This document shows positions 5,031 through 37,998 of a DNA stretch of 38,604 nt, piece by piece (the stretch's first letter is position 1; each line of letters begins with the position of its first letter). The stretch is from a virus. The notes under the pieces were generated by a model. That model ran no database searches, was not told the DNA's origin, and saw only the letters and a program-made list of their open reading frames with translations. The stretch covers positions 1 to 38,604 of the IMG/VR virus record IMGVR_UViG_3300025310_000014. One strand, written 5' to 3'. The position numbers and the translations under genes were made by a program.

Positions 5031-5048
5031 GGTGAGATCTCTTTGTTT

Positions 5049-5175: not shown

Positions 5176-5178
5176 GAC

Positions 5179-22240: not shown

Positions 22241-23305
22241 TCAGCCGACCGTATCGCCGGAGTTGCCGGAGACGCCGCGACAGAGGAGATCGGGCCGGCG
22301 CCACATGACGAGCAGGTTCGACTGCGTCAGGAACTCGAGGCCGCGGCCGTGCTTCATCGGCTCCTGCTTGGCGTAGTAGAGCCGGCCCGGCAGGTTGGCG
22401 GCCTCGAGGAAGTCGCCCGGCGCCACGTACTGGCGGGCCGACTCGGTGGTGCCGAGCGGAAAGAAGATCGCCTCGCCCGCCGGCACGAACCGCCGGTTCG
22501 TGTAGGTGCCGGTGGCGTCGACCGCGTTCGCCGAGCCCGAGTACTCGATGAAGGTGACGTCCTGGTAGGTGAAGGAGAAGCGGCGGTCCTTCAAGGTCGG
22601 GTTCATGGCGACCATCAGCATGTGCGCCGACATCGCCGCATCGTGCACCTTCTTGACCTCGGTGTCGGCGAACATCGATTCCATGAACTCAGGGGACGCG
22701 ATGCACGCCACCCCCGTCATCGTCTCGCCGCGCGCGTCGTTCTCGAAGGCGCGCTTGATGGCGCGCAGCTTGCGGGCGACGTTGGGGCTGCCTGCGAAAT
22801 CGAAGGCGGCGACCTTCTGGGTGATGCCGAAGGCCGTGAAGTAGTTGACGACCACCGTGCCGTCGGCGTCGAGAATCTTGCCCTGCAGCGCGTTCACCCG
22901 ATACCACTCGTGCGTGATCTGGTGCTTCATCGCCATGGTGACGAGCTTCTCGTTCACCTTGTCCTCGACCATCTTCGGCATCATGCGGTTGAAGTAGGCG
23001 AGGTTCTGGATGTCGGCGACGGTGACCGCGTCCTCGTGCGTAACTTGCGGGATCTCGAAGGTGATGCGGTCGCGTTTTCCGACCGAGCCGCGCGTTCCGG
23101 GCGCGCCGCGCGTCGTCATCGGCAGGAGATTGAGCGACCAGTTTTGCCGCTCGATCGAGACGTAAGTGGTCCCGAGCGCCACGGGCTCGGGGAAGATCCC
23201 GAGCTGGGTGACGAGCCCGTAGTTGTTCGGGATGATGTTCATCGCCTCGGTCAGCTCGGCGGCCGACCACTCGCGATTGAGGAAGGCGTCTGCGATCAGT
23301 TCCAT
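22241..23305 (-). CDS. Major capsid protein (lambda gpE family)
   Basis: A 354-residue protein. MELIADAFLNREWSAAELTE then AMNIIPNNYGLVTQLGIFPE, RQNWSLNLLPMTTRGAPGTR (residues 54-73) and GKRDRITFEIPQVTHEDAVT are the conserved N-terminal blocks of lambda gpE-type capsids. Later 'NPTLKDRRFSFTYQDVTFIE' and the end PMKHGRGLEFLTQSNLLVMW then RRPDLLCRG match the family C-terminus. It forms the shell with the decoration protein upstream. GAGGA lies 8 bases before the ATG. Confidence 0.95.
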   Translation of the reverse strand: MELIADAFLNREWSAAELTEAMNIIPNNYGLVTQLGIFPEPVALGTTYVSIERQNWSLNLLPMTTRGAPGTRGSVGKRDRITFEIPQVTHEDAVTVADIQNLAYFNRMMPKMVEDKVNEKLVTMAMKHQITHEWYRVNALQGKILDADGTVVVNYFTAFGITQKVAAFDFAGSPNVARKLRAIKRAFENDARGETMTGVACIASPEFMESMFADTEVKKVHDAAMSAHMLMVAMNPTLKDRRFSFTYQDVTFIEYSGSANAVDATGTYTNRRFVPAGEAIFFPLGTTESARQYVAPGDFLEAANLPGRLYYAKQEPMKHGRGLEFLTQSNLLVMWRRPDLLCRGVSGNSGDTVG

Positions 23306-23326
23306 GGGGAAGTCCTCGATTGCTGG

Positions 23327-24025
23327 TCAGGCGCCCTGGCGCACGATGATGCCGGCGGCCGCGAGCTGGGCCATCGCCGCCTGCTTGAGCTGGCTCGTCG
23401 AGACCGAGGAATGCCACTTGAGCCCGAGACTCGAGACCTCGGCCGGCCCGCGCACCAGCAGCACGACGTTCGTGACGTCGCCCGCCGAGGCGTCGACGGG
23501 CTGCAGCGCGACGGCCCGTGCCACCTCGCGGCCGTCCGTCGCGGTCGGATTGACCGGCGCCCATTTGCCTGAGCCGGCGGCAACCGTCACGTCGAAGCCG
23601 TCGCCAAGCGCGAAATCGGTCGATCCGTCGGCGAGCGTGAACTTGATGTCGTTGTCGAAGGCGCCGGTGCCCGACGCCATGACAACGTCGCCGATCACGA
23701 AGCCGTCGGGGTCGGTGACGCGGAAGGTGCCGTTGTTGGCGGCGGTGGCGATGCAGCGCACGGTGTAGACGCCGACCTTGGCGCCGGCTCTGACGGGACT
23801 CGTGCCGTCGAGCGTCAGCGTGCCGTTGCCGGTGTTGCCGCCGGACTTGACGGCCGATGTGGCGGAGCCCTTGGTGATCTGGCCCAGTACCATGCCGAGC
23901 TCGAAGGCGGCGGTACCGGCGACGACGGTGCCAACCTCGCGGCAGTAGGTGCCGAGCTCGTACTTGAGCACGTCGGAGACGGCCGCCGGCTCGCTGGTCG
24001 AGGTGATGCGCAACGGTGCGACCAT
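23327..24025 (-). CDS. Head decoration protein (lambda gpD family), enlarged
   Basis: A 232-residue protein; lambda gpD has 110. The gpD-like parts are ELGTYCREVGTVVAGTAAFE (residues 23-42), GMVLGQITKG, and near the end VNPTATDGREVARAVALQPV with VLLVRGPAEVSSLGLKW. An inserted beta domain of about 100 residues (GTSPVRAGAKVGVYTVRCIA through TLADGSTDFALGDGFDVTVA) sits in the middle, a known variant in proteobacterial prophages. It stabilises the shell from outside, so the extra domain would be exposed. Confidence 0.85.
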   Translation of the reverse strand: MVAPLRITSTSEPAAVSDVLKYELGTYCREVGTVVAGTAAFELGMVLGQITKGSATSAVKSGGNTGNGTLTLDGTSPVRAGAKVGVYTVRCIATAANNGTFRVTDPDGFVIGDVVMASGTGAFDNDIKFTLADGSTDFALGDGFDVTVAAGSGKWAPVNPTATDGREVARAVALQPVDASAGDVTNVVLLVRGPAEVSSLGLKWHSSVSTSQLKQAAMAQLAAAGIIVRQGA

Positions 24026-24028
24026 GGA

Positions 24029-24418
24029 TCAGACTCCCTTCTTGAAGCGCGCCTGCATCGCGGCGACGAGCGAGGATTTCTGGGCGCCGGTCGATGCCTC
24101 GGCGTCCTCCGCCCGGACTTTCGGGTCGCCGCCCGAGGCGGCGACGGCGCGGTAGAACGCGGCGGCGGCGGCCTTCGCCTCGGCCCGGGGCGCCTTGGCG
24201 AGCACCTTTGCCGCATCCTCAGGCGCCATCTCGGTCTCGAGCGCCAGCACCTGGGCCTGTTCCTCGCGGCCCTTGGCCTCCGGGTGGCCAAGGATGGCGG
24301 CGATGCGGTTCCGTTCGGCGGCGCGGCCGGCCTTTTCGCCCTCGGCGCGACCGCGGAGATGGGCCGCCTCGAGCTGCGCGTGATCGGCGGCCGGCGCCTC
24401 GGGCGCGGTCGTGGTCAT
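24029..24418 (-). CDS. Nested in-frame scaffold protein (lambda Nu3-like)
   Basis: An internal ATG at 24418 (residue 305 of the protease) has AAAGGAGA 8-9 bases upstream, one of the strongest ribosome sites in the window. It would make a 129-residue protein, MTTTAPEAPAADHAQLEAAH and on, rich in Ala, Glu, Lys, with helix AERNRIAAILGHPEAKGREE and a basic end ARFKKGV. Lambda encodes Nu3 in the same way, inside the C gene and in frame. Separate expression is inferred, not seen. Confidence 0.75.
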   Translation of the reverse strand: MTTTAPEAPAADHAQLEAAHLRGRAEGEKAGRAAERNRIAAILGHPEAKGREEQAQVLALETEMAPEDAAKVLAKAPRAEAKAAAAAFYRAVAASGGDPKVRAEDAEASTGAQKSSLVAAMQARFKKGV

Positions 24419-25330
24419 GCGGGTTGTCTCCTTTTGGGGTTTGGGGGACGCGGGTGACGTCTGGGGCCGGCGCGGGCCGGCGAGGCGGTTGAGGCGGGCG
24501 AGCGCGTCATCGAACGCGGCGATGCCGTCGGCAAGGCCCGCCGCGACCGCCTCCGCGCCCATGAAGACGCCGGCCTCGGTGGCGCGGATCGCCTCGGGCG
24601 AAAGCTGCGGCCGGCCGGCATGGACGGCGGCGATGAAGGTCTCGCGCATGGCGTCGGCCTCGGCCTGGAGCCGCTCGCGGACGTGGGCCGGCAGCGGCTC
24701 GAACGGATTGCCGTCGACCTTGCGCCGGCCGGCCGCGATGATGGTGGGCTTCAAGCCCGCGAGCGCCATCGCCTGCGAGCGGTCGATGTGCACCAGCACG
24801 ACGCCGATCGAGCCCACGAGCCCCGTTTCGGTCGTCCAGATCTCGTTGGCCGCGGACGCGATCGCGTAGCCCGCCGAGCAGGCCATGTCGTTGGCGAAGG
24901 CGACGACCGGCTTCCTGGCGCGCACCGCGCGGATCGCCGCCGGCACCTCGAAGCAGCCGGCGGCCTCGCCGCCGGGCGTGTCCATGTCGAGCAGGAGCCC
25001 GCGCACCCGGTCGTCGCCGGCGGCGGTCTTGAGCTGATGGAGGAGGCCCTCGTAGCTGGTGAGTCCCGATTGCGCGCCGACGAAGGCACCGCGGTTGACG
25101 AGCGTGCCGAGGATCGAGACGACGGCGATGCCGTCCTCGGTGATGCGGTAGCCGCCCTTTTCCGAGCGCCGACCGACGAAGCGGTTCATCTCGGCGAGAT
25201 CGAGGCCGAGCGCGCCGGCATCGAGCCCGAGCCGCGCGCCAAGGCCGCCCAGGATGACGGCAAGCTTGTCGGGCAAGATGAGGAGCGGCCGGTCGGCGAT
25301 GCGCGCGAGAAGATGGGCGAAGGGCGTCAT
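24029..25330 (-). CDS. Capsid maturation protease, S49/SppA type (lambda gpC)
   Basis: A 433-residue fusion of protease and scaffold. The protease core has LTSYEGLLHQLKTAAGDDRV, RGLLLDMDTPGGEAAG (residues 110-125), the nucleophile Ser152 in DMACSAGYAIASAA and the base Lys204 in AAGRRKVDGNPFEP, as in S49 peptidases. Residues from 305 are a charged helical region matching a scaffold. It processes portal and scaffold during head assembly. Its start overlaps the end of the portal gene by 4 bases. The order portal, C/Nu3, D, E is that of lambda. Confidence 0.92.
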   Translation of the reverse strand: MTPFAHLLARIADRPLLILPDKLAVILGGLGARLGLDAGALGLDLAEMNRFVGRRSEKGGYRITEDGIAVVSILGTLVNRGAFVGAQSGLTSYEGLLHQLKTAAGDDRVRGLLLDMDTPGGEAAGCFEVPAAIRAVRARKPVVAFANDMACSAGYAIASAANEIWTTETGLVGSIGVVLVHIDRSQAMALAGLKPTIIAAGRRKVDGNPFEPLPAHVRERLQAEADAMRETFIAAVHAGRPQLSPEAIRATEAGVFMGAEAVAAGLADGIAAFDDALARLNRLAGPRRPQTSPASPKPQKETTRMTTTAPEAPAADHAQLEAAHLRGRAEGEKAGRAAERNRIAAILGHPEAKGREEQAQVLALETEMAPEDAAKVLAKAPRAEAKAAAAAFYRAVAASGGDPKVRAEDAEASTGAQKSSLVAAMQARFKKGV

Positions 25331-26955
25331 GCGGCCTCGTCGATGGGGTCATCCGCCGGCGTGGCAGCGGGCGGCGCCAGCAGGTCGGAGGGATGCGGCA
25401 GGCCGAGCTTCCGGTAGTAGGCGCGCTCGTAGGCCGACTGATCGGCGAGGTCGCGCCAGTTGCGGCCGGCGTCGGCGGCGATCTCCTCGAGCGTCTCGAC
25501 GCCCATCTGCACGCCGAGCTGCTGGCCCTGGCGCTCTTTCAGGGGATCGATCATCGGCTTGCCCCAGGCGATGAAGGTGCCGCGCACGAGGTAGGGCCTG
25601 GCGGCCTGGAACGACGGCACGCCCTTCGGCAGCGGCACGGCGCCGAGTGCCACCGCCTCCTCGAGCCAGGCGCCGAAGAACGGCATGGCGATCTGCGCGA
25701 CGAGCCGGTGCCGGCGCGTCAGATACGTGCGCCAGACGGCGAGCAGCGCGGCGCGCGCCGAGGAGTAGTTGACCTCGCGGTAGTTCTTGCCGAGCTCGTG
25801 CGCCTCGACGCCGAGGCCGGCGGCGAGCTGGCGGATGAAGGCGTTCTCGAAGTCGGCGAACACCGAGTTCGGGTGCGACGGCCGGATCACCTCGAGCGAC
25901 TCGTTGGGAAGGAGGTGCGGGATGTCGACGCCCTGGTAGCGGATCTCGCGCTTCTTCGCGTAGTCGGCGGCGGCGAGCGTGTGCGCCGAGACGATGTCGG
26001 AGAGCGGGTTGCCGGTGCCCATGCTCTTGGCCTGGGCACCGATCACGGCCATGGCGCTCGCCCAGTCGAGCTCGGTCTTGATGACGGCGGCGTAGCCCGC
26101 CTGCGCGATCGCCGACTGGAGCTCGGTCTCGGTATACTTGGAGAGCATCTTCATCGGCACGATCGCCGAGGCGAACTCGGAGATGCCGCGCGTCATCTCC
26201 GGCCGCTGGTGCTCGAAGGAGTGGAGCACGATCGGCCGGCCCCAGGGCGTCTGGCGCTCGACCCGTTTCCAAGCGAGGCCTTTGAGGCTCGCCACGTCCG
26301 ACGGGTGCCCTTCGCGGATGTGATAGGCGACGGGCTCGCCGTAGACGTCGCGCTCAATGCCGGCGCGCAGGCGCTCGTCGTCGAACCGCCCGTTCGGGTT
26401 CTCGAGCCGGTCGATGTCGATCAGGTTGAGGCAGGTCTGATAGCCGAGCGCCGACGGCTTCATCTCAATGACGGCGAGGCACTCGCCGTCGACGTAGTCG
26501 GTCTGGTCGGCGAGCATGAAGAGCTGCGAGAAGGTGCGCAGCCGGCGCGCGTCGGCCGCGCAGTCGACGCCCTCGGCGTAGGCCTCCCAGAGCCGCGTGA
26601 CGTGATCCTGCCACTCGGCGGCCGCCTCGATGTCGGAAAGACCAAGCGTGCGCCAGTCGATCGCGAGCGCGAGCTTGAGGCCCGAGCCCGAGACCGCGTC
26701 GCGGTTCATGCGGACCGCGTTCTTGGCGATCGGGTTGTTGCGCACGAGGTCGCGGGCGCGCGCGCGCACCATCCTGGCATCGCGCAGCACCGAGACGTCG
26801 GCCGATGCGAGCGGCGGCCGCCAGAGCGCGATCTCACCGCCGCCGCCGGCCGCAGCATCACGATAGCTCGTCTGCTCGGCAAGTGCTTGGACGGCGTTCT
26901 CGTAGGCCGCGGAGAAGGGATCGCGCGGCAGGCCGACGAGCGAGCGGGAGGGCAT
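25327..26955 (-). CDS. Portal protein (lambda gpB family)
   Basis: A 542-residue protein. Conserved blocks are RARARDLVRNNPIAKNAVRM (residues 63-82), NRDAVSGSGLKLALAI, FMLADQTDYVDGECLAVIEM (about 146-165), and CLNLIDIDRLENPNGR. The C-terminal part has AADYAKKREIRYQGVDIPHL and NYREVNYSSARAALLAVWRT, the strongest signature of this family. It forms the dodecameric ring at one vertex through which DNA enters. AAAGGA precedes the ATG. Normally gpW is directly upstream; here a 1.4-kb cassette separates them. Confidence 0.95.
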   Translation of the reverse strand: MPSRSLVGLPRDPFSAAYENAVQALAEQTSYRDAAAGGGGEIALWRPPLASADVSVLRDARMVRARARDLVRNNPIAKNAVRMNRDAVSGSGLKLALAIDWRTLGLSDIEAAAEWQDHVTRLWEAYAEGVDCAADARRLRTFSQLFMLADQTDYVDGECLAVIEMKPSALGYQTCLNLIDIDRLENPNGRFDDERLRAGIERDVYGEPVAYHIREGHPSDVASLKGLAWKRVERQTPWGRPIVLHSFEHQRPEMTRGISEFASAIVPMKMLSKYTETELQSAIAQAGYAAVIKTELDWASAMAVIGAQAKSMGTGNPLSDIVSAHTLAAADYAKKREIRYQGVDIPHLLPNESLEVIRPSHPNSVFADFENAFIRQLAAGLGVEAHELGKNYREVNYSSARAALLAVWRTYLTRRHRLVAQIAMPFFGAWLEEAVALGAVPLPKGVPSFQAARPYLVRGTFIAWGKPMIDPLKERQGQQLGVQMGVETLEEIAADAGRNWRDLADQSAYERAYYRKLGLPHPSDLLAPPAATPADDPIDEAA

Positions 26956-27016
26956 GGCGGTCCTTTGCGAGGGGCGGCGCGGGCGGCTTCCGGCGCGCCG
27001 GTTGGTTTGGCGGCGC

Positions 27017-27057
27017 CGTCAGAGCATGCGGAACGTGGCCGGCGGCCCGCGCTCGGC
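27017..27057. repeat. 41-bp direct repeat, left copy
   Basis: Identical over 41 bases to 28402-28442. It carries the last 11 codons and stop of the gpW-like gene as an orphan duplicate (ERGPPATFRML). It lies 3 bases beyond the PIN gene and about 60 bases before the portal start. Confidence 0.95.
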
Positions 27058-27059
27058 CT

Positions 27060-27596
27060 TCAATCGTCCTGATCGTTTGCGGGAAACGGCAGCTCGGGCT
27101 GTTCCGACTCGGGCGGCAGCGGCAGGCTTGCGATCGGTGCGACGCGCAAGCGTCCCGCCGCGAGCTTCGCGATATCCTCGTCGTCGGAGTAGAGGGTCGT
27201 TGCACCCTCGACGACGGTGATCGCGACGATCTGGTCGTCGAACTTGGCCTTCGCTCTCGTTACCGCCGGCGCCCGCTCGCCGTCGGCGATCCGTTTCGCC
27301 TGTGAGGCCGCGAACTCGATGGCCGCCCGCTCGTCGAACGATGCAACCCGGAAGCACTTGCTCGACGAGAGGATGCGAAGGAATTCCGCACCTGCCTTGA
27401 CGGCGCGAACCAGGACTTCAGCAAGCGCGGGCGTTGGAATGACGATCTTGGCGTTCTGCTGCTCGAGAACTTCGAACAGATGGGCCACCCGTTCCCGGCA
27501 GTGCTCGACCGGATGGCCCGTGGCAGGGTCTGTCGGCGGCTTGGCGTGCGCGTCGATGACGTAGATCAGGATGCTGGCATCGAACGCGACGATCAA
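27060..27596 (-). CDS. PIN-domain ribonuclease, toxin-like
   Basis: A 178-residue protein started at TTG 27596, giving MIVAFDASILIYVIDAHAKP, the classical PIN start. The acidic set is D6, E60 (PTPALAEVLVRA), D120/D121 (KFDDQIVAIT) and D138/D139 (LYSDDEDIAKLA). PIN toxins such as VapC cut tRNA or rRNA with Mg2+. The C-terminal 20 residues are acidic and Pro-rich. The TTG overlaps the TGA of the upstream gene, so translation is coupled. The pair sits in a cassette flanked by direct repeats. Function as a toxin is inferred from the family and the operon arrangement. Confidence 0.8.
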   Translation of the reverse strand: MIVAFDASILIYVIDAHAKPPTDPATGHPVEHCRERVAHLFEVLEQQNAKIVIPTPALAEVLVRAVKAGAEFLRILSSSKCFRVASFDERAAIEFAASQAKRIADGERAPAVTRAKAKFDDQIVAITVVEGATTLYSDDEDIAKLAAGRLRVAPIASLPLPPESEQPELPFPANDQDD

Positions 27597-28333
27597 TGCG
27601 CCCCCTCTTCGCCATGACGCTCTTTGAGCAGGGTGCGCACTGGGTCCTGAACCGCGCCCCACTCGCTTCCCTGCACCCGGCGCAGCCTGTCGACGACCTC
27701 GGTCAGGGGTGCCTCATCCAAGACCTCAAAATCGCTGATCCTGAAGCTTCGCAGCTCCCACACGCCGTCGCCCGTGCGAAACCACGTGCCGACGCCATGG
27801 ACCCGCAGCTGCCGCCCATAAAGATGGGACGCAATTCTGCGCGCAATCTCGGGGGTGCAGTTGAGGCCCGTGTGGATGACGGCGCCATCGCGCAGGTGCA
27901 CCGGGACGGTCTCGTCCTTTCCGCCGACGCGAATGAGCTGCCCGTCAATCGTACCCGCCTCACGGAACGGCCCATAGACGAGCGGCTCAGGGCGGTTGCG
28001 ACCCGGAAAGGGGATGACAACGGTTGCAGCGTCATCCTGCAGCGCACCGGATGCGCCGTCCTCCCGCAGCAGGTCGTCGATCTCGGCATACGCCTTCCGC
28101 GCCTCGCTCGGACCGCCGCCGTCCCGGACGGCGATCACCCGCTCGCGCACCTTGTTCTCGGCCGGCGGATCGATGGTCGCAACAAGAACGGTCGATCCGG
28201 CTTCGACGCCCAGGAAATGCACGTCCTGGGGCTCCCCGAGCAATCGTGCGAGCGCGACCACGTAAGCCCCGAGCCGCGCCATCGGCAGCGTTGTCGGGCT
28301 GAAGCTGCCGGCAATGCTGAAGCGATACTTCAT
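27593..28333 (-). CDS. Putative antitoxin or partner of the PIN protein (246 aa)
   Basis: I do not recognise a named family. MKYRFSIAGSFSPTTLPMAR then LGAYVVALARLLGEPQDVHF form an N-terminal alpha/beta domain. A middle segment follows, then FREAGTIDGQLIRVGGKDET, VPVHLRDGAVIHTGLNCTPE, IARRIASHLYGRQLRVHGVG and TWFRTGDGVWELRSFRISDF, a beta-rich domain of perhaps OB or SH3-like fold. It is far larger than usual VapB antitoxins and has no visible ribbon-helix-helix or AbrB N-terminus. It is translated with the PIN gene, and its start is 7 bases from a palindrome that may be its operator. Antitoxin role is inferred. Confidence 0.6.
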   Translation of the reverse strand: MKYRFSIAGSFSPTTLPMARLGAYVVALARLLGEPQDVHFLGVEAGSTVLVATIDPPAENKVRERVIAVRDGGGPSEARKAYAEIDDLLREDGASGALQDDAATVVIPFPGRNRPEPLVYGPFREAGTIDGQLIRVGGKDETVPVHLRDGAVIHTGLNCTPEIARRIASHLYGRQLRVHGVGTWFRTGDGVWELRSFRISDFEVLDEAPLTEVVDRLRRVQGSEWGAVQDPVRTLLKERHGEEGAH

Positions 28334-28339
28334 GGCGAC

Positions 28340-28367
28340 CTCGAGGCGTGACCATATCTGCCTCGAG
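28340..28367. promoter_or_regulatory. Operator-like inverted repeat of the PIN operon
   Basis: Perfect 8-bp arms CTCGAGGC and GCCTCGAG around a 12-base spacer that holds TATGGT on the minus strand (possible -10). It sits just before the ribosome site and start codon of the partner gene, the usual place for autoregulation of toxin-antitoxin operons. Confidence 0.55.
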
Positions 28368-28401
28368 CGTCCTTGACGAGGGGGTGTTGCGGCATCCGCC
28401 G

Positions 28402-28442
28402 CGTCAGAGCATGCGGAACGTGGCCGGCGGCCCGCGCTCGGC
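28402..28442. repeat. 41-bp direct repeat, right copy
   Basis: Identical to 27017-27057. It includes the 3' end and stop codon of the gpW-like gene. The two copies bound a 1.34-kb segment with the PIN operon. Confidence 0.95.
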
Positions 28443-28655
28443 GTCATGGCCGGCCGAGAGGTCCGGATAGCCGGCCTCGCGGCCGCACGCGCGCCAGAAG
28501 GTTCGGTAGAGCGCGAGGAGTTGCGGCAGCTGCCCCGGCGCATAGGAGACCGCGCGCTCGCCGAACGAGATCGAGGTCACCTGCTCACCGGTGTTGAGCG
28601 CCAGGATGGCGGCATAGAGCTTCTGAAGCTCGCTCTGGCAGTCGGGGGCGGGCAT
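28404..28655 (-). CDS. Head-tail joining protein gpW family
   Basis: An 83-residue protein. SELQKLYAAILALNTGEQVT (residues 8-27), SISFGERAVSYAPGQLPQLL and ALYRTFWRACGREAG match 'l...y.A...l..G..v..v..g.r.v.y....l..L...y..l' of lambda gpW, which binds the portal after packaging. The C-terminal tail ends DAERGPPATFRML; the last 11 codons and stop are within a 41-bp repeat duplicated at 27017. AAAGGA lies 5 bases before the ATG. In lambda it is next to the portal gene, so the cassette at 27058-28401 is an insertion. Confidence 0.8.
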   Translation of the reverse strand: MPAPDCQSELQKLYAAILALNTGEQVTSISFGERAVSYAPGQLPQLLALYRTFWRACGREAGYPDLSAGHDAERGPPATFRML

Positions 28656-28791
28656 GACTGTCCTTTAGCTGCGCGAATTGTGCGGCTCTGCGGCCACAAA
28701 CCAAATATGCGTAGCGGATAAGGGCAAGGAACGAGATACAACCGACGCGAATCTATTACGATACGCCTGTTTGCTGCCAAACGTGCACCCC
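28656..28791 (+). promoter_or_regulatory. Leader region of the restriction-modification cassette
   Basis: A 136-bp, visibly AT-richer gap between gpW and the endonuclease start. Candidates such as TTGTGC with AAATAT at 19 bases are weak. An in-frame TTG at 28678 could lengthen the endonuclease by 38 residues, but the Asp/Glu-rich start at ATG 28792 looks natural. The promoter is assumed to be here because the genes face against the late operon. Confidence 0.35.
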
Positions 28792-29559
28792 ATGGCCAAC
28801 GACGACCACGAAGAGAATGACGACGACCGCGCGGACGTCGCCACGGCGCCGAGCACTGGCGCGGATGCGCTCGACGAACTAGCACGTTTCGTGCCGCAGG
28901 ATTTGCGCGACCTCTACGAGGTTCACAGCTATCGGCATGCCGCCAGCATTCTTTGGAACAGTCACCCGAATGAGTTTCGAGAGATTGCAGATGCGCTTCG
29001 CGCCTTCCGCCTCACGCGAGCCGACATCCAGGCCGCTGGCGGAAACGAGAGCGATATTGTCAAGCGCATGACGGCGTTGCTGCGGCCTCTCGACTGGCAC
29101 GAGACTAGAATCTCGGCGGACTTGGCGGTGATCAAGGAGATCCGGCGCAAGGTCGAGCGAAGGAGCAAAACAGGAAACGTCCGGTACGAGAGTCAGAAGG
29201 AGCGGATCACCGTTGACATTCCAAACTTTGTCGACGGACATAAGGTCGATTTTGTGAAGAATCGGGTCGCGTTCGACATGGAATGGAACAGCAAGGATCA
29301 GACGTTCGACCGCGATCTCTATGCCTTTCGCACCTTCTATGATTGCAGCCTGATCAGCGCGGGCATTCTCCTGACACGCGGCGCATCTCTCAACCGCGTC
29401 TTTGACGTGATGGGCGATGACGTCAAGAAGAAATTCGGCGCCTCGACGACCTGGATGGGCAAGTTGTTGTTTCGCCTCAACGCCGGACGGAACGGTGGAT
29501 GCCCCGTACTGGTCTTCGGAATCACACCGCGCGTTATGACAGATTGGACCCAGCCATGA
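28792..29559 (+). CDS. Type II restriction endonuclease, BglII/BstYI-like
   Basis: A 255-residue protein, near the size of BglII. The N-terminal 25 residues are acidic (MANDDHEENDDDRADVATAP). LARFVPQDLRDLYEVHSYRH (about 30-49) then AASILWNSHPNEFREIADAL are typical of the family. The catalytic part GHKVDFVKNRVAFDMEWNSK with DQTFDRDLYAFRTFYDCSLI carries D153, E164 and N166 as likely metal ligands (family pattern D...E-x-Q/N). It should cut an RGATCY-like site, but specificity cannot be read with certainty. Its TGA overlaps the ATG of the methyltransferase (ATGA), giving a coupled pair. Base composition is lower in GC than the flanking phage genes. Confidence 0.8.
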   Translation: MANDDHEENDDDRADVATAPSTGADALDELARFVPQDLRDLYEVHSYRHAASILWNSHPNEFREIADALRAFRLTRADIQAAGGNESDIVKRMTALLRPLDWHETRISADLAVIKEIRRKVERRSKTGNVRYESQKERITVDIPNFVDGHKVDFVKNRVAFDMEWNSKDQTFDRDLYAFRTFYDCSLISAGILLTRGASLNRVFDVMGDDVKKKFGASTTWMGKLLFRLNAGRNGGCPVLVFGITPRVMTDWTQP

Positions 29560-30212
29560 CTGTTCGAGACGATCTACTCGCCCATCTCAAGGGGCAACGC
29601 TTCGGCACCATCCTGGCCGATCCGCCGTGGCAATTCCAGAACCGCACGGGCAAGATGGCCCCAGAACACAAGCGCCTGTCCCGCTACGGCACCCTGACGC
29701 TCGCCGATATTCTCGCACTCCCCGTCGCCGAGCACACTGCCGACGTGGCCCATCTCTATCTTTGGGTGCCGAATGCATTACTGCCCGAAGGCTTAGAGGT
29801 CATGAAGGCGTGGGGCTTCGCCTACAAGACCAACATCGTCTGGCACAAGGTCCGGAGGGACGGCGGCCCGGATGGGCGCGGCGTCGGCTTCTACTTCCGC
29901 AATACGACGGAGCTTGTGCTGTTCGGCGTGAAAGGCAAGAACGCGCGGACTCGCGAGGCTGGCCGACGCCAAGTCAACATCATCAAGACCATGAAGCGTG
30001 AGCATTCGCGCAAACCCGACGAGCTCTACGACATCATCGAGGCCTGCAGTCACGCCCCGTTCTTGGAGCTCTTCGCGCGCGGGGCGCGCAAGGGCTGGAT
30101 CGCTTGGGGTGATCAAGCCGACAACTACGCTCCGACCTGGAATACCTACGCCAACCACTCCCGTGCCAAAAGACGCGCCGGAAAGTCGGCGACCGAGCCC
30201 GCCCTGGCGTGA
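29556..30212 (+). CDS. MT-A70 family adenine methyltransferase
   Basis: A 218-residue protein. The catalytic DPPW lies at residues 22-25 (FGTILADPPWQFQNRTG), as in MT-A70/M.MunI-type N6-adenine methyltransferases. Further family blocks are DVAHLYLWVPNALLPEGLEV, MKAWGFAYKTNIVWHKVR, FYFRNTTELVLFGVKGK and HSRKPDELYDIIEACSHAPF then LELFARGARKGWIAWGDQ. It transfers a methyl group from SAM to DNA adenine and would protect DNA from the coupled endonuclease. MT-A70 enzymes also occur alone in phages, so an added anti-restriction role is possible. It ends 24 bp from the converging phage gene at 30237. Confidence 0.9.
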   Translation: MTVRDDLLAHLKGQRFGTILADPPWQFQNRTGKMAPEHKRLSRYGTLTLADILALPVAEHTADVAHLYLWVPNALLPEGLEVMKAWGFAYKTNIVWHKVRRDGGPDGRGVGFYFRNTTELVLFGVKGKNARTREAGRRQVNIIKTMKREHSRKPDELYDIIEACSHAPFLELFARGARKGWIAWGDQADNYAPTWNTYANHSRAKRRAGKSATEPALA

Positions 30213-30236
30213 GCCTTGCGCGCCAAGTCCCACGCC

Positions 30237-31022
30237 CTACCGCGACGGCGTCTGGTAGCCCGAGACGCGCACGATGCGGCCGTTCTGGCGCCGCGTGTAG
30301 TCCTCGGTCATGCCGTCGCTTTCGACCTCGGCCGCGGCCGTGCGCGCCGATCCCTGGTTCAAGGTCGTGGTCGTGCCCATCTCGCCCGCGACGCGGTCGG
30401 CCGCAGCGCGCGCGACGGCGAGCCGCTCGGCCGCGCCGGCGGGCGCTGGCGTCACATCCGGTGTGCCGGACAGCCGGCCGACCGCCGCCACGGCCATGGA
30501 GAAGCCGCCGCCGGTCAGGCTGTCGAGCACGCCCGTCGCCGCCCCCTTGAGCCCGTCCTGCTGGAAGCCCTGGATGCCCTGGTAGGCGGCAAGCCCCACG
30601 GTCACGGGCACGAGCGCCTTGGTGAGCGTCGAGGCGGCGGCGCGCGCCGCCGGATTGGCGAGGATCTGCGCCGCCGTGACGCTCGCGTAGGTCGAAAGCC
30701 CGACTTCGGCGGCCTTCATGAGGCCCGAGGCGGGGGTCGCCGCGGCTTCGGAATTGACGTTGCGCGCGATGAGCTCCGGGACGGAGGGCGCCGCGGGCGC
30801 CGCCGCCCTCTCCTCGGCCTTGGCGCTGCCGCCGAAGAGATTGACGGCATGCGCCGCGCCCGCCGCCACGGCGAGCGCGCCGGCGCGGCCGACGAGCTGG
30901 CCGCCCGTGCGGCTCACCCGCTCGACCGCCTCGCCGGCCCTCATGAGGCCGAAGCCGGCGCCGGCGAGCAGACCGCCCTCGCCGAGCCGGGTCAGCGTGT
31001 CCTTGCGTTTGCGGTCGGCCAT
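30237..31022 (-). CDS. Phage protein with C-terminal ESDG...YQTP domain
   Basis: A 261-residue protein from ATG 31022 (AGAGG 8 bases upstream); ATG 31028 overlaps the terminase stop and is an alternative. RLGEGGLLAGAGFGLMRAGE, VGRAGALAVAAGAAHAVNLF and LVPVTVGLAAYQGIQGFQQD give hydrophobic Gly/Ala helices. The last 60 residues, AERLAVARAAADRVAGEMGT with VESDGMTEDYTRRQNGRIVR and VSGYQTPSR, match the end of the 407-residue protein at 20123. Function is unknown. It follows terminase and would precede gpW but for the R-M insertion. A virion-internal or membrane-active role is a guess. Confidence 0.65.
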   Translation of the reverse strand: MADRKRKDTLTRLGEGGLLAGAGFGLMRAGEAVERVSRTGGQLVGRAGALAVAAGAAHAVNLFGGSAKAEERAAAPAAPSVPELIARNVNSEAAATPASGLMKAAEVGLSTYASVTAAQILANPAARAAASTLTKALVPVTVGLAAYQGIQGFQQDGLKGAATGVLDSLTGGGFSMAVAAVGRLSGTPDVTPAPAGAAERLAVARAAADRVAGEMGTTTTLNQGSARTAAAEVESDGMTEDYTRRQNGRIVRVSGYQTPSR

Positions 31023-31027
31023 GGGCA

Positions 31028-32878
31028 TCACCTCTGGAAGGCGTCGGCGAGATCGGCGAGCGAGCGCACGGCGACCTCGCCGAGGAGCTGCCGCCGGCGC
31101 GCCTCGTAGTCGATCGAGAGCGCATAGCGCGCCGCCATCGCGCCGACGAAGGTGTCGAGCGCCTCGTTGCGCCGGCCCGCCACCGGCACCCATCGGCGCT
31201 TCGGCCAGCCGCCGACGAACTCGACCTTGAGCCGCTCGGAGCCGACCAGCTGTTCGAAGTAGTCGGGCTCGAGATGGCGGGGAAAATGCACCCGGTAGTG
31301 CGAGCCGGGAATGTCGGGATCGGGCTTGGCCGCGAGCTCCTGGAAGAGCAGCGTCTTGCCGTCGTCGACGCCGACGAGATGGAGTTTCGCCCCGAACTTG
31401 AAGCGCTCGTCCGACTGGCGGATGATCGGCTTGCCTTCGCCCGCGACCCCGCGCACAGCGTAGTAGGGCTTGAAGGCGGCCCTCGCCTCGCGCACGAACT
31501 CGAGCACGAGCTGCTGCTGGTAGCCGGCGTCGATCGCGACCGCCTCGAGGTGGAGCGTGTGCCCGGTCGGATGGCGGAACGTGCGGGTGAGCAGCTGCGC
31601 TTCCATCGCCCGCCAGTTCTGCACGACCGAGGTGTCGGCGTAATGGCGCGCGTAGTCGAGCACCCACTTCACGTCTTCGGCGCCCCAGCCGAGATACTGC
31701 GCTTCCCAGCGGTCGTGCTGCACGTCGACGTGCGCCGTGATGAGCAGCACGCCGTCGGGCACCGTGTAGGAGCCGTCGGCCTGGGGTCCGTAATCCTCGC
31801 GGCGCTGATAGAGCTCCTCCGGCGTCGTCCTCGGTCCCTTGGTCGGATTGTAGGTGCGCCCGAGCTTCAGGTTGATGAAGGTCTGCTCCTCGGCGGGCTT
31901 GCCTTCGACCTCTTCCCATTCGGCGGCGAGCTCCGCCATGGTCACCCATGGCGAGTAGATCGCCCAGCAATAGAAGCCGGCGATGCCGTTGAACTGGGCG
32001 CGCGGGCGCCAGTGGCCGTGACGGACCGCGAGCTGCACCTGCCGCTGATCCCAGGCGGCGTCGCACTCCGGGCAGTGATAGCGCGCCGTGGCGGGATCGC
32101 CGCGCGTCCAGCGCACCTGCTCCCATTCAAGCGCCTGGAAGGCGCCGCAGGCGTGGCAGGGAACCTCGAAGTGGCGTTGATCGGAGCGGCGGAACCAGTC
32201 CTCGATGTGGATGAAGCCCTCGAGCGTCGGCGTCGAGGCGAGGATCTTCTTGCGGTTCCAGAAGTTCTGCGCGCGCTGAAACCCCTGCTTGATCGGATCG
32301 CCGTCGGCGCCGATGTTGGCCTTGTACTTGTCGATCTCGTCGAACATGACGATCCGGCGCGGCCTGGACGCGAGCGAGGCCGGCGAGTTGGCGCCGGCGA
32401 ACACGACGTCGCCGCCGGGATAGGCCTTCTCGAGGATCGTGTTGGCCGACGTGCGCGCCTGCCGGCCGATGCGCTCGGCGAGCGCCGGAGTTGCCTCGCA
32501 CGTCGGCACGAAGCGCTTCGTTGAGAAGCTCTCGGCGAGCTCGAGCGTCGGCAGCACCAGCATCTGCGGCGCCGGGTCCTGGTCGATGTAGTAGCCGAGC
32601 GCGTTGATGAGGACTTCCGTCTTGCCGACCTGGCTCGACATTTTGAGCACGACGATCTCGATGTCGGGGTCGGCGGGCGCGTCCATGGGCTCGCGCAGGT
32701 AGGGCGTGCGGTCGGTGCGCCAGCGTCCGGGCTCCGGGCCGGTGCCGCGCGCGATCTGGCGCTTGGCGTCGGCCCACTGCGAGATTGTCTGGCGCGGCGG
32801 CAGCTCGAGGCCCATGTGCCAGCCGCTCGGCGCCCCTCCGGTGGCGGCTGTGAGTTTCGTCACGCTCCGGGCGGTCAT
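31028..32878 (-). CDS. Terminase large subunit (GpA family)
   Basis: A 616-residue protein from ATG 32878, which overlaps the small-subunit stop (ATGA). Walker A is SSQVGKTE (residues 81-88) and Walker B VMFDEID (177-183), followed by the coupling motif ILASTPTLEG. A Zn-binding set CHACG and CPECD (Cys 241, 244, 269, 272) is typical of the lambda gpA family. The nuclease part begins with LLITAHVDVQHDRWEAQYLG and has AVAIDAGYQQQLVLEFV. It cuts concatemers and drives DNA into the head. Lambda-type terminases usually cut at cos sites; the cos site is not identified here. Confidence 0.95.
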   Translation of the reverse strand: MTARSVTKLTAATGGAPSGWHMGLELPPRQTISQWADAKRQIARGTGPEPGRWRTDRTPYLREPMDAPADPDIEIVVLKMSSQVGKTEVLINALGYYIDQDPAPQMLVLPTLELAESFSTKRFVPTCEATPALAERIGRQARTSANTILEKAYPGGDVVFAGANSPASLASRPRRIVMFDEIDKYKANIGADGDPIKQGFQRAQNFWNRKKILASTPTLEGFIHIEDWFRRSDQRHFEVPCHACGAFQALEWEQVRWTRGDPATARYHCPECDAAWDQRQVQLAVRHGHWRPRAQFNGIAGFYCWAIYSPWVTMAELAAEWEEVEGKPAEEQTFINLKLGRTYNPTKGPRTTPEELYQRREDYGPQADGSYTVPDGVLLITAHVDVQHDRWEAQYLGWGAEDVKWVLDYARHYADTSVVQNWRAMEAQLLTRTFRHPTGHTLHLEAVAIDAGYQQQLVLEFVREARAAFKPYYAVRGVAGEGKPIIRQSDERFKFGAKLHLVGVDDGKTLLFQELAAKPDPDIPGSHYRVHFPRHLEPDYFEQLVGSERLKVEFVGGWPKRRWVPVAGRRNEALDTFVGAMAARYALSIDYEARRRQLLGEVAVRSLADLADAFQR

Positions 32879-33396
32879 GGGATGGGCGTCGTCTCGGCGA
32901 TCGCGGCCGCGTCGTCCTGTAGCTCGCGGATAAGCGCCTCGCACTCATCGACGATGACGGTCATGGCCTCTGCGGGAACGAAGTTGGCGATGCGGGCGGG
33001 GAGGCCAAGGATGCGGTCGCGCAGCTTGCGCGCGATCTCGAATTCGCGGGCGCGCACTTCATCGCGCAGGATGTAGAGGCCGGCCTTGATCTTGTAGTCG
33101 AGCTCGGCGCGGTCGGCGTGCGCGAGCTCTTTGCGGGTGCGGGCCTCGGCAAAACTCACGACCGGGCCCTGGCCGGGGACGGCGGCGAGGTCGCCGGTGC
33201 GGCCGGCATCGTAGGCGGCCCGTCGGCCGGCATCGAGGCTCGCCTCATACTGGGCCTTGGCCTTCTCGAGATCGATGCCGGCGGGCGTCTCGTCGATGCG
33301 GCCCTCGCGGATCAGCTTCTCGAGCCGCTGGCGGCTGATGCCAAGGGCCTCGGCGACCTTCCGACGACTGACGAAGGTCTTGCGCGTGTCACTCAT
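32875..33396 (-). CDS. Terminase small subunit (Nu1-like)
   Basis: A 173-residue protein. The N-terminus is a winged or simple helix-turn-helix: FVSRRKVAEALGISRQRLEK then LIREGRIDETPAGID, which would recognise the packaging site. A central helical hinge (AEARTRKELAHADRAELDYK) and IKAGLYILRDEVRAREFEIA, with ARKLRDRILGLPARIANFVP, match lambda Nu1-type/terminase small subunits of proteobacterial prophages. It overlaps the large subunit by 4 bases. ATG 33396 is chosen over an in-frame ATG four codons before; the ribosome site is weak in both. Confidence 0.85.
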   Translation of the reverse strand: MSDTRKTFVSRRKVAEALGISRQRLEKLIREGRIDETPAGIDLEKAKAQYEASLDAGRRAAYDAGRTGDLAAVPGQGPVVSFAEARTRKELAHADRAELDYKIKAGLYILRDEVRAREFEIARKLRDRILGLPARIANFVPAEAMTVIVDECEALIRELQDDAAAIAETTPIP

Positions 33397-33555
33397 ATGC
33401 CTGCACAACGACTCGCCTTTTTGATCTTTTCAACACCTTGACTTGCAACGCATTTTCCACAGCCGCCTCTACCCAAATTCGGCGCGCAGCGTCGGCCGCG
33501 GCGGCCGCGCCGGCGGAGAGGGACCCGCAGAAATGGGCGGGTGCGAACTCTTGGG
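33397..33555 (-). promoter_or_regulatory. Intergenic leader before the terminase genes
   Basis: A 159-bp gap with an AT-rich part (TTGAAAAGATCAAAAAGG on the minus strand near 33420) and a GC-rich palindromic part (GGCCGCGGCGGCC near 33497). A packaging site or promoter would fit here, but no clear -35/-10 pair or cos-like sequence is visible. Confidence 0.3.
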
Positions 33556-34458
33556 TCAGCGGGCCCTGGCGATCTCGACCGCCATCAGGCGGGCCGCCTC
33601 GCGGGCGACGACGGCGCCGGCTGCCGACACCTTGGCCTGGACCTCGGCCTGATGCCGCTCGACCTCCCGGGCGAGGTTCGGTCCCCAGATCGGCATGACT
33701 TTCTTGCGTGATTTGTCCGTTGGCTTGACGCGTCGAAAGACGGGCTTGCGTCCGGGCAACATGAAGGTCCGCACGGCCAGCTGAGGCTTGTTCCAGGCCG
33801 CATGGGTCGCGCCAGGGTTACGGCGGCTCCAGGTCGCACCGTAGTACTCGCGTGTAATCGTGGTGTGACCGCTCTGGACACTGAGCACACCGACCAGAAA
33901 CTCCGGCTTGGCCGGCAAAATCTTGAAGCTCTGGTGAATCTTCCGCTGCGCCCTAAGACCGGTCCATTGCGACACGTCGCGCCTGAGCCCCGTGCGCAGC
34001 GTCATGAGACCGTGGTTGATGGATCGCGAGATCACGAGCCGGCCCTTGGTGAGCCGCGTCGAGATGCCAATGAACCCCTTGGCAAGCCGCTCCATGTCGG
34101 TGAGGTCGACGACGATGCCGGGCGCATCATAAGCATACGCCGCCTTGCGCGGATGACGCTCCGACGCGAATGTCATGCCGCCCGCACCGTACGCCAGCAG
34201 GCGATCTCGGTGCAGCCGGCGCGCCTGCGCCATCGTCACGTCGGCATAGACGATCTTGTCGGCCCGCAGATCGAAGCCGAACGATCCAGGCCCCTGCCCA
34301 GGTCCACCTGACACGCCGAACGCGCCGCGGTAGCCCTTCGCGGTCGTCGCAGACATGGCGACGGCCCGCTCGCGGCTGATGGCGACGCGATACCGGCTGC
34401 GGCCGTCGAAGGAGCGTCTCGGAGACGAGCCTTTTCCGCCAGCAGGCGCGTCCCCCAT
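33556..34458 (-). CDS. Phage protein, minor tail Z-like (putative)
   Basis: A 300-residue basic protein whose ATG 34458 overlaps the upstream TGA (TGATG). The middle holds AGGMTFASERHPRKAAYAYD then APGIVVDLTDMERLAKGFIG and ISTRLTKGRLVISRSINHGL. The C-terminus has WNKPQLAVRTFMLPGRKPVF then RRVKPTDKSRKKVMPIWGPN and LAREVERHQAEVQAKVSAAG, which resembles the 'R.P.F.......p...i.GPs.......' end of minor tail protein Z. Its position ahead of the terminase is unusual for a tail protein. The match is partial, so the name is tentative. Confidence 0.45.
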   Translation of the reverse strand: MGDAPAGGKGSSPRRSFDGRSRYRVAISRERAVAMSATTAKGYRGAFGVSGGPGQGPGSFGFDLRADKIVYADVTMAQARRLHRDRLLAYGAGGMTFASERHPRKAAYAYDAPGIVVDLTDMERLAKGFIGISTRLTKGRLVISRSINHGLMTLRTGLRRDVSQWTGLRAQRKIHQSFKILPAKPEFLVGVLSVQSGHTTITREYYGATWSRRNPGATHAAWNKPQLAVRTFMLPGRKPVFRRVKPTDKSRKKVMPIWGPNLAREVERHQAEVQAKVSAAGAVVAREAARLMAVEIARAR

Positions 34459-34652
34459 CACGTCCCCCTGGCGGTGCGGCGGGCGAGCGCGCGCGCCCGG
34501 GCGATGGCGTAGGCCCGCGCGGCCTCGAGGTCTTCGGCCACCGAGCGCGTGGCGCGTTCGAGCTCGGCCTTGGCGTCGCCGCCGCGGCCTTCGGCAATGG
34601 CGATGGCGGCGGCGATGAGCGCCTTGCGCCGTTCGGCGCACTGACAGGGCAT
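34458..34652 (-). CDS. Small hypothetical phage protein with CxC (64 aa)
   Basis: From ATG 34652 the protein reads MPCQCAERRKALIAAAIAIA, EGRGGDAKAELERATRSVAE, DLEAARAYAIARARALARRT. The start 'MpCqCaeRR.al..A' is frequent in small proteins encoded before terminase genes in Rhizobiales prophages. It is helical after the CxC. No clear ribosome site is seen. Its stop overlaps the next start. The role is unknown. Confidence 0.55.
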   Translation of the reverse strand: MPCQCAERRKALIAAAIAIAEGRGGDAKAELERATRSVAEDLEAARAYAIARARALARRTARGT

Positions 34653-34689
34653 GATGCTGGCTCGGGTTGTGGCGGGAGTCGGCTCCGCC

Positions 34690-34905
34690 TCAGCGTCGCC
34701 GGAGCGGACCGCTTGAACGACAGCGCCCGGGCGGTCGATCCGTCCCGGGCGCAACTCTCTCGATGGTAGCAATCCGATAGCGCGTTTCACCGATTCTGCC
34801 AATGGTCAAACGCCCGCCTCGCGGCAATCTCAGACGTGTGAGTCTCTCGCGCAACACTCGGGCCGCGCGGGCGCCGCCGGCGACGGGCGCAGACTCGACC
34901 GTCAA
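34690..34905 (-). CDS. Doubtful small reading frame
   Basis: A 71-codon frame starting at TTG 34905 without a ribosome site. LTIGRIGETRYRIATIERVA reads like a genuine beta strand pair, while the ends are Arg-rich and look like noise. It may be a decayed or very small gene, or non-coding leader between the membrane protein and the CxC protein. Confidence 0.2.
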   Translation of the reverse strand: MTVESAPVAGGARAARVLRERLTRLRLPRGGRLTIGRIGETRYRIATIERVAPGTDRPPGRCRSSGPLRRR

Positions 34906-34933
34906 ACCATGCGGCAGCCGAAGACGGGCAGCC

Positions 34934-35200
34934 TCAATCCTGCCGGATCAGGCCGGAAGCGCAGCCCGACCACGACCGTCGCCAAAGCGTCTCGCCGAGG
35001 ACGCCGGCGATGCCCGAGCCCGCGAACACGGCGAGAATGACCCAGGGCGCATGGGGCCCGTGCAGCCACGCCGCCGCGCCGATGCCGGTTGCATAGGAGG
35101 CGGTCAGGACCGCCTGCCCGACGAGGAGCCCCCAGAGCACGAACGCGCGCGTGTGCAGCCACGCGGAAACTGCCCGTTCCCTCGACCTCTGTCCGCTCAT
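34934..35200 (-). CDS. Small two-helix membrane protein, holin-like
   Basis: An 88-residue protein with GGAGGG 4 bases before ATG 35200. It has a basic N-terminus (MSGQRSRERAVSAWLHTR), a membrane helix AFVLWGLLVGQAVLTASYAT (residues 19-38), a short turn and a second helix WVILAVFAGSGIAGVLGETL (53-72), ending WSGCASGLIRQD. Two helices with charged ends fit a class II holin, but this is also the shape of many small membrane proteins, and the endolysin is at the other end of the cluster. It is the first gene after the promoter at 35277-35306. Confidence 0.5.
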   Translation of the reverse strand: MSGQRSRERAVSAWLHTRAFVLWGLLVGQAVLTASYATGIGAAAWLHGPHAPWVILAVFAGSGIAGVLGETLWRRSWSGCASGLIRQD

Positions 35201-35276
35201 GCGACCCTCCATCGTGCCCCGTGCGTCAAGATTTTCCTCACACGACCTCTGGTCATGGTCAAAATTCCGTTCCAAG

Positions 35277-35306
35277 ATAAAACGCCACTTGGTCAACAAG
35301 TGACAA
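35277..35306 (-). promoter_or_regulatory. Minus-strand promoter with operator palindrome
   Basis: TTGTCA (35306-35301) and TTTTAT (35282-35277) are 18 bases apart and could drive the genes from 35200 leftward. The spacer is overlapped by CACTTG-GTCAA-CAAGTG (35286-35302), a perfect 6-bp-arm palindrome suited to a dimeric repressor. The XRE gene lies 100 bp away, divergently. Confidence 0.45.
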
Positions 35307-35403
35307 CTGCCGGAATGCGCTTGCTGATTGTTGGTTCCGCGCGAGCGGGACCGCACTGTCCTGCCGCCCGGTTTGGTGTGTACATGCGTTTTGGTGGGTG
35401 GGC

Positions 35404-35700
35404 ATGTCAGCCATCGATAAGCACATCGGCCGGCGGTTGTCGGAACGCTGCGCGGAGCTCGGCCTCACGCTCGAGGAGCTGGCGGCGCAGATCCAGGTGA
35501 GCCGCGTGGAGCTCGCCGGCATCATGCAGGGCCGACGCCGCGCCGGGGCCGATTTTCTGCTGCGCGCCTGCGCCGCTCTCGAAGTGGGACCGAGGTATTT
35601 CTTTGCGGGTCTCGAGCTCGACAAGACGGAGAAGGCCGATCTGAGCAACGTCGTCGATCTGGCACGCATCCTGCGCAGCCGCGGCAGGCGTCGCCGGTAG
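35404..35700 (+). CDS. XRE-family helix-turn-helix regulator
   Basis: A 98-residue protein; ATG 35404 follows GGTGGG, and an in-frame GTG at 35398 is an alternative. Residues 5-66 form the XRE fold: IGRRLSERCAELGLTLEELA, AQIQVSRVELAGIMQGRRRA, GADFLLRACAALEVGPRYFF. The typical 'G.....ll.i..aL.v....f' third part is present. The tail is basic (SRGRRRR). It binds DNA as a dimer. Being divergent from the late-strand genes, with a palindrome between, it may control that promoter. It may be a phage repressor or cofactor; it lacks a peptidase domain for RecA-induced cleavage. Confidence 0.85.
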   Translation: MSAIDKHIGRRLSERCAELGLTLEELAAQIQVSRVELAGIMQGRRRAGADFLLRACAALEVGPRYFFAGLELDKTEKADLSNVVDLARILRSRGRRRR

Positions 35701-35736
35701 CGACCTGCGGCATGCACATATAGAACACGCGCCATG

Positions 35737-35749
35737 CTGCAATTTGCAG
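35737..35749. promoter_or_regulatory. Perfect 13-bp palindrome, possible operator
   Basis: CTGCAA-T-TTGCAG lies between the XRE gene and the GNAT-like gene, downstream of a TATAGA (35720-35725). Its place suggests an operator for the following gene. No regulator is assigned. Confidence 0.35.
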
Positions 35750-35832
35750 TGGAAACTGGCGCCTCATTTCCCTCGAATCAACCACTCGTCAGCATCCTCC
35801 TCGGTGTCGCCAACGCCAACGGGAGGTCTGCC

Positions 35833-37488: not shown

Positions 37489-37629
37489 TTTGCCCTCGCG
37501 GCCGCGACACCGGTCTCCTTAGCCGGAAGCGGCCATCACTAGTTCGTAGGTCACACAACTTATCCCCGTCCGCGTGCCACCTGCTACCAAAAAGGTCACA
37601 TCGATGTGGAAAATCGACGGAGGCAATCG
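37489..37629. promoter_or_regulatory. Divergent intergenic region
   Basis: A 141-bp, AT-richer gap between the PAS-like gene and the next plus-strand gene. GGTCACA occurs twice (about 37548 and 37591) as a direct repeat, which may be a regulator site. No clear promoter is seen. Confidence 0.25.
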
Positions 37630-37896
37630 ATGCGAAGCGCAGACGAGGTTCTTGCCGATGGCGTGGCGCTGGCGCTTTTGCCGGAAGATCAGCGCTCAGC
37701 GCGCGCTCGCGCCGAGATCCGCGCGCTCGCGGAGGAGTTGCGCGGCATTCGCGATCTTGCGGCATACCTCCTCGGCGTGTGCGGCATGGCGCTTGGCGAG
37801 GGCGGGGCGCTCGATGAGCGTGGCGCAACCAACGTGTCGGACATGCCGGAGATGCTCGGCCTCCTCTCGGCGCGCGGATCGCCGACGCGGCACTGA
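37630..37896 (+). CDS. Small hypothetical protein (88 aa)
   Basis: ATG 37630 has GGAGG 6 bases upstream; a GTG at 37606 is in frame. The sequence MRSADEVLADGVALALLPED then QRSARARAEIRALAEELRGI is helical, and the end is Gly-rich then DERGATNVSDMPEMLGLLSA. No family is recognised. It lies at the edge between prophage-like and host-like DNA. Confidence 0.5.
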   Translation: MRSADEVLADGVALALLPEDQRSARARAEIRALAEELRGIRDLAAYLLGVCGMALGEGGALDERGATNVSDMPEMLGLLSARGSPTRH

Positions 37897-37998
37897 GGCG
37901 AGCCTTGAGGTAGCGTCACAGCTTGAAATCTGACGCCGTTGACCTGGCTCTGCCGCGTGCCAAGTCCCATGCTATGCTCAAAAAGACGAACTCAGATC

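Follow-up and report, generated by a model that had tools for sequence, protein, structure and literature searches.

In the virus record IMGVR_UViG_3300025310_000014 (38,604 bp, analysed over its full length and hereafter called the window), a two-gene cassette lies inside the phage head operon between two identical copies of a 41-bp sequence that holds the end of a head gene. This arrangement raises the question of whether the cassette is a unit that moves by using a gene end as an att-like site, as an earlier note on this DNA had suggested, or whether the repeats are the trace of a single acquisition, and what the acquired pair of genes might do.

Layout of the locus

The head genes of the window lie on the minus strand in the order TerL, a region that holds an inserted restriction-modification pair of opposite orientation, gpW, the cassette, the portal and an S49-type protease, the last being called from a sequence reading only. 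The gpW-like head-tail adaptor (28404..28655, 83 aa) is intact and matches PHROG 75 (head-tail adaptor Ad1) with E 1.6e-8 and Pfam gpW with E 0.011, the latter below the cut-off; the portal protein (25327..26955) is of the lambda family (PF05136, E 4.7e-89) and comes next after gpW in relatives. The 41-bp copies lie at 27017-27057 and 28402-28442 and have 100% identity; each contains on the minus strand 12 gpW codons (AERGPPATFRML), the stop codon TGA and CG, beginning at a codon boundary. When up to 3 mismatches were allowed, the window gave no third match, and 100 shuffles gave none. The upstream copy (28402..28442) is the native end of gpW and is continuous on its gpW side with the relative L002 described below, and the downstream copy (27017..27057) adjoins the portal leader and is continuous with L002 on its portal side.

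The 1,344 bp between the copies (27058..28401, minus strand) have a G+C content of 65.8% versus 69.0% for the window and carry two overlapping minus-strand genes. The first, p246 (27593..28333), encodes a 246-aa partner protein that matches PHROG 19868 (E 3.4e-44) and no Pfam family, and the second (27060..27596) encodes a 178-aa PIN-domain nuclease that matches PHROG 21691 (E 9.3e-24), with a VapC-like structure model and four conserved acidic positions. The PIN reading frame starts with a TTG and overlaps the p246 stop by 4 nt, and the RNase is probably translationally coupled behind p246. No recombinase gene is present inside the cassette. The identity and mismatch search, the overlap of the reading frames, the profile matches and the gene reading thus bear out what the earlier note had seen here, namely identical copies holding the gpW end and stop, a two-gene operon with a PIN nuclease, a partner of no known family and the lack of an integrase.

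Upstream of p246 lies a leader of the form CAAC-n2-3-CTCGTCAAG ... ATG (28334..28388, minus strand), which was delimited by blastn and an alignment of 8 copies and forms the left edge of the homologous module; the blastn homology begins at 28388 to L016 and L018, and at 28403 to L017. Since it is common to alphaproteobacterial copies at different sites, the leader belongs to the module. A promoter and a terminator of its own are part of the usual definition of a moron. In the cassette region a scan for the sigma-70 consensus only gave 0 promoter-like sites, and 1 terminator-like structure was found against 0.8 expected, which is no better than chance.

Two further features of the window lie close to the head genes. 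A BglII-family restriction endonuclease (PF09195, E 3e-48) and an MT-A70 methyltransferase occupy 28678-30212 on the plus strand, opposite to the head genes, between the terL-side genes and gpW and with a G+C content of 59.8%; L002 is without this pair and has about 116 bp there instead. The head module is also flanked by two minus-strand proteins (20123-21547 and 30237-31125) with a common C-terminal motif like SDGxTExYTRxQNGRxVxVxGYxTP, for which the stretches scanned gave no PHROG match.

An empty site in a close relative

Among the 14 loci from an IMG/VR portal search, L002 is a close relative of the window. Its contig has a single copy of the 41-bp sequence (7899-7939) and its gpW is followed directly by the portal gene, so that it represents an empty site. 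The window shares with L002 five long blocks of 96-98% identity (22243-23306, 23331-27057, 28402-28656, 30235-30740 and 30744-38174), and the outer flanks, to the left of the left copy and to the right of the right one, continue the L002 sequence. Because L002 has one copy, with gpW and then the portal, the insert in the window amounts to 1,385 bp, consisting of 1,344 new base pairs and 41 of duplicated gpW end; and since gpW and the portal leader are each retained in one copy, both genes are intact.

The gpW-portal junction was further surveyed with a gpW profile in 32 portal loci, comprising the 14 from IMG/VR, L054 and L057, and 16 from 397 genomes. gpW was recognised in 15 of these and adjoins the portal in all 15, with no room for a gene; the 17 loci with no gpW call are 2 contig-end fragments and 15 more distant portals. 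As L003, L004, L005, L007 and L013 look like one phage, the 15 contigs correspond to roughly 11 phages. An insert at this junction is found in none of the other 15 contigs in which both genes were recognised, and the cassette, in the manner of a moron, therefore separates genes that are adjacent in relatives. The comparison of relatives with and without the cassette, which the earlier note had proposed, thus upholds its view of an insertion that restored the gpW end, and indicates a recent event between gpW and portal with 41 bp duplicated.

Two other origins of this structure have to be weighed. First, the record is a metagenome-type virus contig, and an assembler might have placed an unrelated cassette within the head operon by way of 41 shared base pairs. 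Such a chimera is very improbable: both genes have open frames that terminate precisely where the junctions lie, the sequence of L002 carries on in either flank with nothing missing, and the usual assemblers work with final k-mers longer than a 41-bp repeat. Next, the cassette could have come by homologous recombination from an unseen relative carrying it behind the gpW tail, with one 41-bp copy as a leftover of the donor. Gene exchange among phages of this group and the identity of the copies, as left by recent exchange, would be in line with such a route, which we nevertheless regard as rather unlikely, since no such donor is found among the 15 contigs with gpW and portal, and the 3 other IMG/VR contigs with close cassettes have them behind a cement gene.

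In the reading that we prefer, a self-contained two-gene module would have been inserted once between gpW and portal in a single illegitimate event, possibly by template switching with re-entry of the joining strand 41 bp upstream of the point it had left; the fill-in of a long staggered break would be an alternative route to a 41-bp duplication. Inserts that break gpW or portal would be lost, and the precise restoration of the gene end may therefore reflect survivorship and not targeting.

Repeats around other copies of the module

If the gene end served as an attachment site, a core repeat would be expected to recur at different insertions of the module. Exact direct repeats were sought in the 700-bp flanks (shorter at contig ends) of 31 module copies, with 100 single-base shuffles for each; excluded were L017, L018 and L099, which are cut by contig ends, duplicates including L104 and L106-L109, the minus-strand stretches L043, L044, L045 and L047, and L102. 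The 41-bp repeat of the window, with a shuffle maximum of 13, is the sole long one among the 31 copies. L101 has a flank repeat of 15 bp (shuffle maximum 13) and L049 one of 14 bp (14), both far from the module edges, and the repeats of the remaining 28 copies measure 8-11 bp and fall inside their own shuffle range. The earlier note had further proposed a search for the 41-bp repeat in other gpW-like genes, and a degenerate pattern for the gpW tail, ERGPPATFRML-stop, matched one IMG/VR contig, that of L002. Taken together, the repeat test and the tail pattern identify the 41-bp sequence as the gpW end of the window's phage and not as a recurrent attachment core.

The cassette could still be pictured as a site-specific mobile unit, with the repeats as attL and attR and a recombinase acting in trans to move it among virion gene ends. 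The repeats are exact and the gene end is precisely restored, the module likewise begins right after the stop of a head gene in satellite-like carriers, the pair stands behind a portal gene in L102, and a tyrosine recombinase gene directly precedes the pair in L047 and in AP017628, which are probably one plasmid. However, 0 of the 30 other copies tested have a comparable repeat, the tail pattern matches in IMG/VR the empty-site contig alone, and the insertion sites vary in both sequence and gene. With a long repeat in just 1 of 31 copies, the proposal that the gene end acts as an att-like site by which the unit moves is not supported, and the repeat test, the tail pattern and the gpW-portal junctions together led us to reject an att-like or trans-mobilised unit as the main reading and to leave it only a marginal probability. 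Transposition of the cassette itself was also rejected: it has no terminal inverted repeats, its ends having merely chance-like inverted matches nearby, it contains no transposase, and its duplication is 41 bp long and not a short target duplication.

Distribution of the gene pair

The p246-PIN pair is found in phages and plasmids of alpha-, beta- and gammaproteobacteria. In L016, L017 and L018, close cassettes (76-77% at the nucleotide level) stand not after gpW but after a cement gene of the head (PF09956, E 5e-29 in L017), and the pair occupies the same place behind the cement gene in L019 and L040. It comes after a portal gene from a different family (PF06381) in L102 and after a CI repressor gene in the Pseudomonas phages Ostro and Pacha_bin_1; it lies near repressor-like HTH genes in L103 and L100, and adjoins a tail-tip gene in L110. 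A search of a phage collection with p246 and PIN returned two near-identical Pseudomonas phages only, and 8 plasmid records matched p246. In L047 the pair is situated beside DUF4007 and sulphur-transfer-type genes, which may form a Dnd-like defence set.

A homologous pair is present in L043 behind an IS1595-family transposase (PF12762, E 1e-33), within a 3.15-kb transposon (2904-6058) that is bounded by inverted ends of 30 bp and a target duplication of 8 bp, TAATTTTA, and whose passengers are p246-PIN and two short ORFs. L042 has the gene order and the left end of L043, the right end not being found in the contig. The L043 element indicates that p246-PIN can travel as transposon cargo. Since other phages, plasmids and a transposon carry the pair without repeats such as those of the window, the pair itself is the interesting part of the locus. 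No description of it was seen among the open PMC papers listed for PIN morons, IS1595 toxin passengers and repeat-flanked morons.

One of the carriers, L040 (1-16251, G021:C13), is an integrative element of about 16 kb with an integrase, Prim-Pol, D5 helicase, gpA-type TerL, DNA methylase, a capsid gene, cement, p246-PIN and Mrr, and it ends 186 bp before tRNA-Met. No tail gene was recognised among the ORFs read, and Mrr, cement and portal were assigned by likeness to L016 and L017. The element has the look of a satellite that forms capsids and bears a load of defence genes.

Linkage and conservation of p246 and PIN

The two genes constitute a tightly linked family. In a set of 40 loci, which leaves out L017, L018, L099 and L080 (an apparent duplicate of L047), PIN follows p246 on the same strand and adjacent to it without exception. 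Relative to the stop of p246, the PIN profile match begins at -3 to +9 nt in 37 loci and at 66-70 nt in 3, and the annotated PIN gene of Ostro begins 1 nt after p246. All 18 new IMG/VR contigs found via PIN have p246 upstream, in one of these cut by the contig end. In the order of G001, 397 genomes were covered, of which 10 have p246 and the same 10 have PIN; one of the 10, G001, was itself found via p246. The pairwise distances of p246 and PIN, calculated for 26 non-redundant loci among the 36 with an unbroken PIN, correlate with r 0.90, and 0 of 2000 permutations were as high. For both genes, comparison of the window with L016 or L019 gives dN 0.15-0.16 and dS 1.0-1.3, corresponding to a dN/dS of about 0.13-0.16; against L020, p246 has dN 0.36 and dS 1.7, and the dS of PIN is saturated.

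PIN is split or stopped in 4 of the 40 loci (L102 5606-6101, L082 5735-6257, L081 4753-5156 and L045 9134-9646) and p246 is open in all 40, which may be a sign that the nuclease is costly; these are figures in which broken p246 copies would be under-sampled, because 22 of the 40 loci were found via p246 (L102 was found via PIN), and in which draft assembly errors could account for some of the broken PIN frames.

Features of the two proteins

Both PHROG 19868 and PHROG 21691 are listed in PHROGs as of unknown function, and PADLOC gave no match for the pair. Searches with p246 yielded no match in Pfam or NCBIfam, none to an antitoxin family and none to DUF5830, and a profile search of the PDB returned two matches (E 0.67 and 0.88) that were taken as chance. 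Its structure model is poor (pLDDT 61), and the fold search gave no match reaching E 0.001, with weak ferredoxin-like matches to the N-terminal part only. A TRADD-N match to p246 (prob 0.82, TM 0.28-0.39) was dropped, as no such PIN pair is described in the portions of PMC8195603 consulted.

The PIN structure model (pLDDT 78.5) has VapC toxins as its best matches, and the best solved-structure match of the window protein is VapC2 of Rickettsia felis (3zvk, E 1.7e-4). The protein evidently represents a VapC-type PIN domain with conserved acids, though the window copy is below the Pfam cut-off (E 0.016, with no match in a second Pfam scan); an E. coli relative reaches a Pfam E of 4e-10. Among the 36 unbroken copies, the acidic E is present in 35, the second and third D in all 36, and the first D in 34, two rows not covering that position. 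The PIN of L016 (949-1500) is the 1 of 36 with K at the acidic E position, and its neighbouring p246 is open.

Carriers in E. coli

In the E. coli P22-like prophage contigs L104-L106, L108 and L109, the pair separates Mnt from the injection genes, and antirepressor-type and tailspike genes stand on the other side, Pfam checks having been made on L105. An annotated E. coli chromosome has the same order, and in L107 Mnt is present, but transposase-like genes are found there. Among 5,426 E. coli genomes, 32 have p246, and the list of those with PIN, compared by eye, names these same 32 accessions. P22 (BK000583) has sieA together with a small ORF between gene 16 and mnt. PMC10883804 places sieA between homologues of genes 16 and 9 and reports it in 22 of 66 P22-like phages.

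Discussion

The insertion in the window is of a known kind and carries a little-known, widespread gene pair. The repeat is best read as the footprint of one acquisition, by which a phage can gain a gene pair within an essential head operon and lose nothing. The explanation that accounts best for the locus as a whole, and which appears likely, joins a single-event moron with a pair that would be expressed in lysogens, where p246 would hold or steer the PIN nuclease, and that would harm or exclude competing phages or else act as an addiction module with that side effect. Weighing on the other side are the promoter and terminator scans of the cassette region, the PADLOC search that gave no match, the Pfam score of the window's PIN below the cut-off and the poor model of p246.

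As for the function, we infer a prophage-borne PIN defence or toxin module. The sites near repressors, in the sieA interval and beside the DUF4007 and sulphur-transfer genes of L047 point to a lysogen-expressed role in defence or exclusion. A more specific proposal, to which we would give about an even chance, is that p246-PIN is an uncharacterised PIN-RNase system for superinfection exclusion or defence in prophages, satellites and plasmids, with p246 sensing or gating the nuclease, and that the unit is passed among unrelated elements and takes lysogenic-conversion slots, for example the sieA interval. The label of toxin-antitoxin is plausible for p246-PIN, and a defence system that depends on both proteins would be just as possible.

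The known systems that the locus most resembles differ from it in definite respects. First, the morons of lambdoid phages are extra genes of lower G+C that come between two head genes lying side by side in relatives, as the cassette also does; unlike them, the cassette has an exact 41-bp duplication at its edges and no promoter or terminator was found in its region. The IS1595-family transposon of L043 has a pair homologous to that of the window, there behind a transposase, whereas the cassette lacks a transposase and such ends and has a 41-bp duplication instead.

Next, VapBC modules share with p246-PIN the PIN fold, the acidic residues and a toxin gene that comes second and overlaps the first. 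That the pair is an ordinary addiction module of the type II toxin-antitoxin (VapBC-like) kind, uninvolved in phage defence, is suggested by this gene order with its 4-nt overlap, by the VapC-like fold, by the more frequent loss of PIN than of p246 and by the occurrence on plasmids. We consider it possible, yet doubtful: the location next to repressors and in the sieA interval speaks for exclusion, and where VapBC has a short DNA-binding antitoxin of the VapB type, the partner here has about 240 aa (246 in the window) and matches no antitoxin family.

A further parallel is DS-5 of DefensePredictor, a two-gene defence system of E. coli composed of a PIN RNase and a second protein, both of which are needed, and judged by its authors likely not to be a toxin-antitoxin (PMC13092281). 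Compared by description only, both systems combine a PIN RNase with a second protein and may be related, but the DS-5 partner is described with DUF5830 and an AcrIF4-like domain, and p246 has no DUF5830 match. As described there, DS-5 shows that defence is within the reach of a two-gene PIN system and that such a system is not bound to be a toxin-antitoxin.

Finally, sieA of P22 occupies the same interval as p246-PIN in the E. coli P22-like prophages. SieA resides in the inner membrane and keeps DNA from entering (PMC10883804), and its gene is unrelated to p246-PIN. If p246-PIN is an exclusion system, it would explain what the E. coli P22-like prophages keep in the sieA slot of P22, and its presence in E. 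coli makes the function of the pair directly testable.
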